A program made the translations under genes and the position numbers. Shown here piece by piece: positions 17,228 through 19,750 of a stretch of DNA of 32,374 bases. Positions within the stretch are counted from its first letter, which is position 1; every line of letters begins with the position of its first letter. Under the pieces are notes generated by a model. It ran no database searches and was not told the DNA's origin. It saw only the letters and a list, made by a program, of their open reading frames with translations. The DNA is from a virus. Location: positions 1 through 32,374 of IMG/VR virus record IMGVR_UViG_3300025687_000184. One strand, 5' to 3'.

Positions 17228-17442
17228 ACAAACTAAGGGCAATGGATGAATTAAAGCTGGCTTATCGGCGCACATTTAATAACGAAGATGGCGAGCAAGT
17301 TTTAAGTGATCTTAAAAAGCGTTTTGCTTTTGAGACAACCACGTTTTCGGGCGATCCTTATCAATCAGCGTTTAATGAAGGGCAGCGAGCAGCAGTGCTG
17401 CTGATCGTCCGTATGCTGTCCGAAGAGAAGGAAATCACATGA
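17224..17442 (+). CDS. Bbp19-like small conserved phage protein
   Basis: The 72-residue product has LAYRRTFNNEDGEQVLSDLK near residues 12-31, then ETTTFSGDPYQSAFNEGQRA and a hydrophobic helix VLLIVRML. The AYRRTF..EDG.QVL.DL pattern with a following NEG-R helix is characteristic of the Bbp19-type family, encoded between portal and scaffold in many podoviruses. The exact role is not established. It overlaps both neighbours by 4 bases, consistent with co-assembly with head proteins. Confidence 0.7.
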   Translation: MNKLRAMDELKLAYRRTFNNEDGEQVLSDLKKRFAFETTTFSGDPYQSAFNEGQRAAVLLIVRMLSEEKEIT

Positions 17443-18242
17443 GCGAAGAGGCAATCCAAGAAAGTGGATCTCAAGAAGTCGCAAATACTGGCGCAGCGTC
17501 AGTAGGATTTTTAGATAGTTTACCAGAAGATTTGCGCAATGAGCCAAGTTTGCGCAACTTTACTGATCCCGGTTCTTTGGCAAAAAGTTATGTACACGCG
17601 CAGCGTATGATCGGCGCGGACAAAATACCGTTGCCCGGCAAGTCTGCAACGGATGATGAGTGGCGAGCAGTTTATTCTAGGTTGGGTGCACCAAACGATC
17701 CGAGCGAATATGACATTTCGTTTAGTTCTTCGTCTATGGGTGAGAATGAGATTGCGAGCTTAAAGACGGCTTTACATCAGGCAGGATTGACAAACCGTCA
17801 AGCGCAGGCGTTTGCAAATTATTTGGATCAGTCGTACAGCGAAGGCATGAGCCAGCGTGAAAGTGCGGCAGAGGATGCACGCTATCAAGGCGAGCAGGAA
17901 TTGCGTCAAGAGTATGGCAAGGCGTTCGAACAAAAGTTAGAACGTGCGCAGATGGCGGCTAATGTTTTGTTGGGCGGTACGGAAATCTTTGATGAGATTA
18001 CGTTGTCAGACGGGCGCATGTTGGGCGATCATCCGGCGATTGTTCGCATGTTTGCGTCCCTTGCAGATCAGATTGGAGAAGATAGTTTGGAGGGTCAGAC
18101 CACTGAAATGATTATGACCCCAGAAGAGGCATCACGTCAAATTGCGGAGATGACTAGACAAGATGGCCCTTATTGGAATAAAATGCATCCAGAGCATGAC
18201 AGTTACATCAGTCAAGTTCTTGCTCTACGTGAATACTTATAG
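17439..18242 (+). CDS. Capsid scaffold protein
   Basis: The 267-residue protein has an acidic start, then SVGFLDSLPEDLRNEPSLRN and DPGSLAKSYVHAQRMIGADK (about residues 21-66). This motif is highly typical of podovirus scaffold proteins upstream of the capsid gene. The middle is helical and Gln/Glu-rich (ERAQMAANVLLGGTEI). The C-terminal region PYWNKMHPEHDSYISQVLAL is a usual capsid-binding end. It directs prohead assembly and is then lost. The stop TAG at 18240-18242 overlaps the GTG of a possible mini-gene. Confidence 0.88.
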   Translation: MSEEAIQESGSQEVANTGAASVGFLDSLPEDLRNEPSLRNFTDPGSLAKSYVHAQRMIGADKIPLPGKSATDDEWRAVYSRLGAPNDPSEYDISFSSSSMGENEIASLKTALHQAGLTNRQAQAFANYLDQSYSEGMSQRESAAEDARYQGEQELRQEYGKAFEQKLERAQMAANVLLGGTEIFDEITLSDGRMLGDHPAIVRMFASLADQIGEDSLEGQTTEMIMTPEEASRQIAEMTRQDGPYWNKMHPEHDSYISQVLALREYL

Positions 18243-18346
18243 TGGATAACCGAGAGGCCCACACACAAGCATGTGCGTCATGCGGAGTGACTGCCCAAGC
18301 AGTAAGCAAGACCCCGCAAGGGACAATCGAGCGACATCACCTGTAA
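18242..18346 (+). CDS. Possible 34-residue mini-gene with CxxC and HH
   Basis: A GTG at 18242 overlaps the scaffold stop (TAGTG) and opens a frame with the product VDNREAHTQACASCGVTAQA ending QGTIERHHL, then TAA. C11-x2-C14 and H32/H33 could make a small zinc site. However, there is no purine-rich ribosome binding site upstream, so translation would need reinitiation after the scaffold. The same bases form three consecutive stem-loops, so the coding potential may be accidental. I list it as an alternative reading of the structured element. Confidence 0.3.
   Translation: MDNREAHTQACASCGVTAQAVSKTPQGTIERHHL
18243..18346 (+). ncRNA. Structured element between scaffold and capsid genes
   Basis: Three perfect short hairpins follow one another: GCATG-TGCGT-CATGC (18269-18283), ACTGC-CCAA-GCAGT (18290-18303) and CCC-GCAA-GGG (18313-18322), the last a GNRA tetraloop. 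They lie in an otherwise unexplained 128-base gap before the capsid gene, in a genome where most genes overlap. The capsid ribosome binding sites (AGGAG, GGAG) follow at 18356-18367. It could stabilise or process the mRNA of the most highly expressed gene. It could be a regulatory RNA domain or a packaging-related signal. No terminator U-tract is present. Confidence 0.45.
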
Positions 18347-18370
18347 CCTTTTCTTAGGAGTTGGAGACAA

Positions 18371-19243
18371 ATGTCTACTCAAATTACTACGGCATTCGTC
18401 AATCAGTTTTCTTCGAACGTACAGATGCTGTCACAGCAGATGGGTTCACTACTGCGCACAGCGGTAGACGTAGAAACTGTTAATGGCGAGAAAGCCTTTT
18501 TTGATCAGGTCGGCAGTGCTGCTGCTGTTCTGAGAACTACACGTCATGCGGATACTCCGCTGATTGATACACCTCACTCTCGTCGCATGGTGACGATGGC
18601 GGATTATGAATATGCGGATCTGATTGATGATCAGGACAAAGTTCGCATGTTGATCGATCCAACATCAACATACAGCCGCGCTGCTGCTGCTGCTATGGGT
18701 CGCGCAATGGATGACGTGATTATCTCTGCCGCTCTTGGCAATGCCAAGACTGGTAAAGATGGTGGAACAACAACACCATTCGATACATCAAATCAGCAAA
18801 TCGGTGTAGGTTCACCGGCGGCTGGTTTGACACTGGCGAAGTTGCTAGAGGCAAAAGAAATCCTCGACAGCAATGATGTTGATCCATCAATCCCACGTTA
18901 CATCGTTGTTTCACCAAAACAGATCTCTGATTTGTTGGGCGACACAACCGTGACATCAAGTGACTTCAACACTGTTAAGGCTTTGGCGCAAGGCGAGCTA
19001 AATCAGTTTGTTGGCTTCACATTCATCACGTCAAACCGTCTAGGCGTTGATGGCTCAGCCTATCGTCGCGTAATTGCATTCGCAATGGACGGCATCAAGC
19101 TAGCGATCGGCAAAGAGCCAACTGCTCGCATTGATGAACGCGCAGACAAATCATATGCAACACAAGTCTACTATTGCCAATCTATCGGGGCGACCCGTAT
19201 GGAAGAAGCAAAAGTGGTCGAAGTGTTGTGTTCTGAAGCGTAA
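18371..19243 (+). CDS. Major capsid protein
   Basis: The 290-residue protein starts MSTQITTAFVNQFSSNVQML after a double Shine-Dalgarno (TAGGAG, TTGGAG). Characteristic segments are QQMGSLLRTAVDVETVNGEK, RHADTPLIDTPHSRRMVTMA and DYEYADLIDDQDKVRMLIDP in the N-terminal half. The C-terminal half has SNRLGVDGSAYRRVIAFAMD and AIGKEPTARIDERADKSYAT. These match the compact HK97-fold capsid proteins of T7-like marine podoviruses. It lies directly after the scaffold, as expected. Length is short for T7 gp10 but usual for this subgroup. Confidence 0.9.
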   Translation: MSTQITTAFVNQFSSNVQMLSQQMGSLLRTAVDVETVNGEKAFFDQVGSAAAVLRTTRHADTPLIDTPHSRRMVTMADYEYADLIDDQDKVRMLIDPTSTYSRAAAAAMGRAMDDVIISAALGNAKTGKDGGTTTPFDTSNQQIGVGSPAAGLTLAKLLEAKEILDSNDVDPSIPRYIVVSPKQISDLLGDTTVTSSDFNTVKALAQGELNQFVGFTFITSNRLGVDGSAYRRVIAFAMDGIKLAIGKEPTARIDERADKSYATQVYYCQSIGATRMEEAKVVEVLCSEA

Positions 19244-19721: not shown

Positions 19722-19750
19722 GGGGCGGTTCGCCGCCCCCTCTTTTCTTT
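19722..19750 (+). terminator. Intrinsic terminator with UUCG tetraloop after the head genes
   Basis: GGGGCGG (19722-19728) pairs with CCGCCCC (19733-19739) around a TTCG loop, an exceptionally stable tetraloop. CTCTTTTCTTT follows. It marks the end of the capsid/decoration transcript. The next gene starts at 19762 with its own GGAGG. Confidence 0.9.

Follow-up and report, generated by a model that had tools for sequence, protein, structure and literature searches.

A predicted folded RNA with AYAA/C internal loops is kept upstream of capsid genes in many unrelated short-tailed phages

The MS2-type coat operator of RNA phages is a hairpin that controls a virus gene and bears a short A-rich unpaired motif in an apical loop at a start codon. 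In the T4 gene 32 operator, the leader pseudoknot gives way on its 3′ side to an A/U-rich segment that has less structure and contains the ribosome site (PMC535899). The HK022 put RNA, in the part of PMC9378689 drawn on here, is a ~70 nt RNA downstream of the early promoters that contains two bulged hairpins and acts without a phage protein. We analyzed the gap between a scaffold-like gene and the major capsid gene in a 32,374-base record of a marine phage (IMG/VR IMGVR_UViG_3300025687_000184; the whole stretch is called the window), and its comparison with relatives strongly supports that this gap encodes a selected, folded RNA. As in the MS2-type operator, a hairpin here presents a short A-rich unpaired motif, but the motif lies in an internal loop at least 40 nt from the start (the AYAA strand ends 44 nt before the ATG), and an apical loop overlapping the start codon was not found. 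The likeness to the T4 gene 32 operator, the closest system in its working, is one of layout: a pseudoknot lies in the 5′ leader here too, followed on its 3′ side by a hairpin (D) and then by a linker that is 42% A and shows no conserved pairing among 60 relatives. However, the T4 operator has no twin AYAA/C hairpins, measures ~28 nt against ~90 nt for the structure here, and governs the gene of an ssDNA-binding protein, whereas the element here precedes a capsid gene. Like the put RNA, as far as that part of the source describes it, the element has two hairpins with bulges or internal loops; the put RNA is not tied to a capsid gene and no pseudoknot between its hairpins is described there (PMC9378689), and the element sits in the structural cluster, between the scaffold and capsid genes, instead of downstream of early promoters. 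Rfam 15 gave no match in the whole window, nothing for the element at E ≤ 10, and chance matches only in two relatives. The earlier note had taken both of its readings of the region to be undescribed, and we likewise found no description of the element in the literature searched; an earlier report in subscription papers is possible.

IMG/VR holds a record near-identical to the window (L001), and the capsid protein of the window is 70% identical to its counterpart in pelagiphage HTVC010P. The local gene order is portal, small gene, scaffold-like gene, capsid gene, and small head gene. The scaffold-like gene (17439–18242, + strand; phrog_3742, weakly phrog_458), which is annotated as a capsid assembly protein at the same position in named relatives, ends with the stop codon TAG at 18240–18242, and the major capsid gene (18371–19243, + strand; phrog_3437) follows after a gap of 128 nt (18243–18370), the length given in the earlier note. 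The last part of the gap (18333–18370, + strand), as read from the sequence, is the linker, with the Shine–Dalgarno motif (AGGAG, 18356–18360) before the capsid ATG at 18371. This motif is mostly paired in predicted single-sequence folds (29% unpaired) and has no conserved partners; masking of the Shine–Dalgarno was rejected as the mechanism because no conserved pairing was found. No intrinsic terminator or attenuator was called on the + strand at 18242–18370, and the element itself was rejected as a terminator because no U-run follows the hairpin. An intrinsic terminator (19722–19739, + strand; GGGGCGG-UUCG-CCGCCCC followed by CUCUUUUCUU) lies 3′ of the gene after the capsid gene; it is strong, is located within the structural gene cluster, and keeps its position in many relatives. 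Among 62 relatives, 39 have a strong terminator no more than 700 nt from the capsid stop, compared with 4 of 186 shuffles. With this terminator downstream and, in two relatives, a likely one ahead of the element, the capsid unit looks like a separate mRNA segment with the structured RNA at its head.

We gathered capsid homologues from IMG/VR, extracted the scaffold–capsid gaps, and aligned 60 distinct sequences (alignment A1), in which RNAalifold yielded four hairpins. Together with a pseudoknot, these hairpins (A, B, C, and D) make up one fold common to the 60 gap relatives, which covers 18242–18332 on the + strand of the window. Hairpin A (18242–18262) pairs GUGG (18242–18245) with CCAC (18259–18262), above which AUAA (18246–18249) lies opposite C18258 in an internal loop, followed by CC/GG and a GAGA loop; five of its six pairs have changed on both sides, and 99–100% are paired in the 60 relatives. 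Hairpin B (18269–18283) pairs GCAUG (18269–18273) with CAUGC (18279–18283) and is 99.7% paired, with compensatory change in four of five pairs. Four of five pairs are also compensatory in hairpin C (18290–18303; ACUGC at 18290–18294, GCAGU at 18299–18303), which is 97.3% paired. The pseudoknot (18284–18296) links the two bases directly after hairpin B (GG, 18284–18285) to CC (18295–18296) in the loop of hairpin C. In hairpin D (18306–18332), GC (18306–18307) pairs with GC (18331–18332) and GA (18310–18311) with UC (18327–18328); C18312 is then opposite ACAA (18323–18326), and CCC (18313–18315) pairs with GGG (18320–18322) under a GCAA loop. This hairpin is 93–98% paired and shows compensatory change. 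The GCATG/CATGC, ACTGC/GCAGT, and CCC-GCAA-GGG (18313–18322) hairpins that the earlier note had reported are all present and real, but they are part of this larger fold, of which hairpin A, the pseudoknot, and the repeated AYAA/C loop had been missed.

Several variants of the fold were observed. About 55 extra nucleotides lie between hairpins B and D in L016, L062, L069, L602, L606, L608, and L618, and a longer arm seems to replace hairpin C there. L225 (3697–3785) shows a minimal form, with hairpins A and D and without B or C, and a TTG-started capsid gene downstream. L074 and L079 have a likely terminator (GGCTTAGACATTGTCTAAGCC plus a T-run) between the scaffold gene and the RNA element. In L082 (2727–2903; HTVC010P AGE60278.1) and L086 (1726–1905), both HTVC010P-type, annotated small hypothetical proteins overlie the position of hairpin A; the RNA element may have been over-annotated there, or these may be true genes on the same DNA.

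Before the pseudoknot was added, 98.3% of the cells in A1 were paired, compared with 88.1% in shuffled alignments and 24–36% with partners slid. In a mutual-information scan of all column pairs that was blind to the structure, pairs already in the fold led the ranking by far, and a strong extra pair (columns 60–72, z 10.9) was the pseudoknot. With the two pseudoknot pairs included, 98.4% of the cells are paired (slid controls, 25–40%), and the covariation score is 0.347 against 0.145±0.007 for shuffled and 0.014–0.065 for slid alignments. The covariation analysis across homologous regions, proposed as a check in the earlier note, found 18 of the 25 pairs of the whole structure in A1 to be compensatory, with changes on both sides. 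The pseudoknot is paired in all 60 sequences, and its variable pair is GC in 49, AU in 8, CG in 2, and GU in 1. In two further sets of leaders, whose capsid proteins are ~30% identical to that of the window, the covariation scores with the pseudoknot included are 0.415 versus 0.153 (A2, L251-type) and 0.503 versus 0.196 (A3, L206-type). The pseudoknot pairs of A2 and A3 are swapped wholesale with the pairing retained; in A2, one pair is AU in 12 and CG in 8, and the next is UA in 9, GC in 7, and CG in 4. Folding energy was rejected as evidence because z is near zero (the 161-nt window fold has z = −0.54, unremarkable from a single sequence, and the mean over the 60 relatives is −0.2), and covariation carries the case. 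It is the comparison across relatives that shows the pairing to be selected, and G–U pairs, which are common in the A1 structure, point to RNA rather than DNA.

Hairpins A and D share a module in which AYAA lies opposite a single C, with a flanking G–C pair. The strand order of the module is inverted between them: the AYAA strand comes first in hairpin A (X-first) and second in hairpin D (Y-first). Pelagiphage Baldr carries the Y-first module twice, and one L206-type leader carries the X-first module twice. With a module finder, all 66 of the 66 window-type leaders gave at least one module, and 60 gave two or more; at least one was found in 11 of 660 shuffles and in 17 of 2,123 other windows of the same loci, and two or more in none of either. 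The module is present in 32 of 32 leaders of the L206 set versus 0 of 421 other windows of the same loci, and in 36 of 58 leaders of the L251 set versus 4 of 742. When all combinations of a 4-mer and an opposite base were counted over 215 leaders, ACAA/C (120) and AUAA/C (97) were the most frequent and the next reached 23. A G–U swap for the A–C mismatch of the module was seen in only five cases, too few for a claim. L251-type leaders without the strict module (in L495–L568, and also L419 and MEP301) show CAUA opposite C in a similar hairpin; this form, found in 12 leaders, is a possible variant of the module loop. The L206-type leaders L426–L482 have a conserved ACACAAUUC...AGCGUU stretch 3′ of the second module, which may pair with GAACGUU before that module and enclose it.

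In a gene-independent scan of IMG/VR with a 19-base hairpin A pattern, most structural matches had a capsid homologue 100–180 nt downstream, with identities as low as ~24–35%; one preceded an epsilon15-type capsid gene (phrog_212; L223, E = 5e-12). A scan with a hairpin D pattern added T7-like (phrog_267) and phrog_9953 capsids. The module is located 40–170 nt upstream of major capsid genes of phrog_3437 (~30% identical), phrog_267, phrog_9953, and phrog_212. In the T7-like leaders, it is found in 37 of 38, versus 10 of 760 shuffles and 4 of 497 other windows of the same loci, with one module each and no pseudoknot seen. Relatedness among the phages makes the counts in any one family non-independent, and the patterns of both scans were picked for their likeness to the element of the window; the fairer evidence comes from the homology-collected sets and the within-locus controls. 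Named phages bearing the module are HTVC010P (A type), Baldr, Caulobacter phage S2B (an isolate with the Y-first module), Mycobacterium phage jiawei, and MedDCM-OCT-S37-C6. A search of 19 records with R1 found a single copy in each of 12 and none in the others; several of these others carry a module that has diverged too far for R1. In epsilon15, BPP-1, and a Microcystis phage, the leader cannot accommodate the element. The strict module was not found in Vibrio 1.257.O, 1.182.O, ZP6, YeP5, MEP301, Hodr, and Dunaliella virus SI2, and some phages within the module-bearing capsid families have no recognisable module. Host-encoded copies were rejected: the 19-nt X-first pattern gave chance matches only in bacterial and archaeal genomes, and the best R1 match there (L315, E = 0.004) falls within what looks like a protein-coding frame. 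Judged from these sequence comparisons, many short-tailed phages unrelated to one another keep a folded RNA ahead of their capsid genes.

Besides a structured leader, the earlier note had offered a very small Cys/His protein, encoded by a GTG-started frame of 34 residues (18242–18346). This frame exists in the window genome and overlaps the scaffold stop, but its start codon is present in 39 of 60 relatives, and the mini-gene reading fails because in 49 the frame does not survive to its end; it is open throughout in only 10. Codon-position substitutions in it are 0.354/0.264/0.256, the third position not being the fastest, and with a frame that is not kept and no bias of the coding kind, we rejected the gene, to which we give practically no credence. 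A conserved DNA site, such as a packaging site, an origin, or a promoter, might be expected in the gap of a tightly packed genome; however, the changes are compensatory and include many G–U pairs, the stem sequence changes freely, and the element lies on the sense strand in a constant orientation relative to the capsid gene, which makes a DNA site hardly credible. A self-cleaving ribozyme or specific cleavage site that frees a separate capsid mRNA would fit the strictly conserved unpaired bases, the pseudoknot, and the terminator-bounded capsid unit. Such an activity is very improbable, as no Rfam ribozyme matches and it would be unusual for a catalytic core to be present in two copies of opposite strand order, as this loop is.

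Excess capsid or scaffold protein might bind the twin AYAA/C loops and repress capsid translation in the manner of T4 gp32. The pseudoknot with its A-rich 3′ segment resembles the T4 gene 32 operator (PMC535899), and the element always adjoins the capsid gene, often directly 3′ of the scaffold gene. However, the same loop accompanies phrog_3437, phrog_267, phrog_212, and phrog_9953 capsids, which share so little sequence that it is difficult to envisage one RNA-binding protein surface conserved among them. The constancy of the loop across unrelated capsids argues, not decisively, against the capsid protein as the ligand, and we consider autogenous repression unlikely. Alternatively, the nascent RNA might act on RNA polymerase, as the HK022 put RNA does, so that downstream terminators are passed; the two internal-loop hairpins, the strong terminator downstream within the structural operon, and RNA polymerase as a conserved host partner would all be compatible with this. 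However, the module is also found in T7-like Autographiviridae, which transcribe with their own polymerase. Furthermore, the element follows the capsid gene in its placement, not early promoters or operon starts, whereas put RNAs lie downstream of early promoters in the part of PMC9378689 drawn on here. Such a tie to the capsid gene speaks against an elongation element of a general kind, again not decisively, and leaves this alternative quite improbable.

The reading that we favor, with a probability of about 0.6, is that the element acts in cis, as a leader RNA through which capsid output is set post-transcriptionally, with twin recognition sites held by the pseudoknot and a putative host partner. 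Its role is probably to control the amount of shell protein made. The two AYAA/C loops would form the twin recognition site, and hairpin B and the pseudoknot would hold them in place. A factor docked on the twin loops would affect how ribosomes load onto the capsid unit or how long its mRNA lasts, and would in this way raise or set the amount of capsid protein produced; the unit so controlled would end at the conserved terminator. The docking partner would be a conserved host factor: the ribosome, a ribosomal protein, or an RNA-decay enzyme. Since the loop is constant while the stems and the capsid proteins turn over, a conserved host factor is more likely as the partner than the capsid protein, and this is the least certain step. 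The leader controlling capsid expression that the earlier note had suggested is borne out as a structured leader, by covariation in three leader sets and by a constant site upstream of the capsid gene; the control itself we infer.

More tentatively, and at slightly less than an even chance, this apparently undescribed RNA class, with twin strand-permuted AYAA/C loops and often a pseudoknot, may be a capsid-expression device that short-tailed phages of four or more capsid families and a number of host groups have in common, via a conserved bacterial factor that all of them recruit. Of all phage proteins, the capsid protein usually reaches the highest abundance, and the element is a possible handle on how such phages, including relatives of the very abundant pelagiphage HTVC010P, balance the dose of capsid against that of scaffold. 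One recurring loop with unrelated capsids predicts a single shared binding partner, which would be retrievable, and the leader RNA can be tested in named isolates that carry the Y-first module, Caulobacter phage S2B among them. In addition, the strand-permuted reuse of one internal loop is an unusual example of RNA module evolution.
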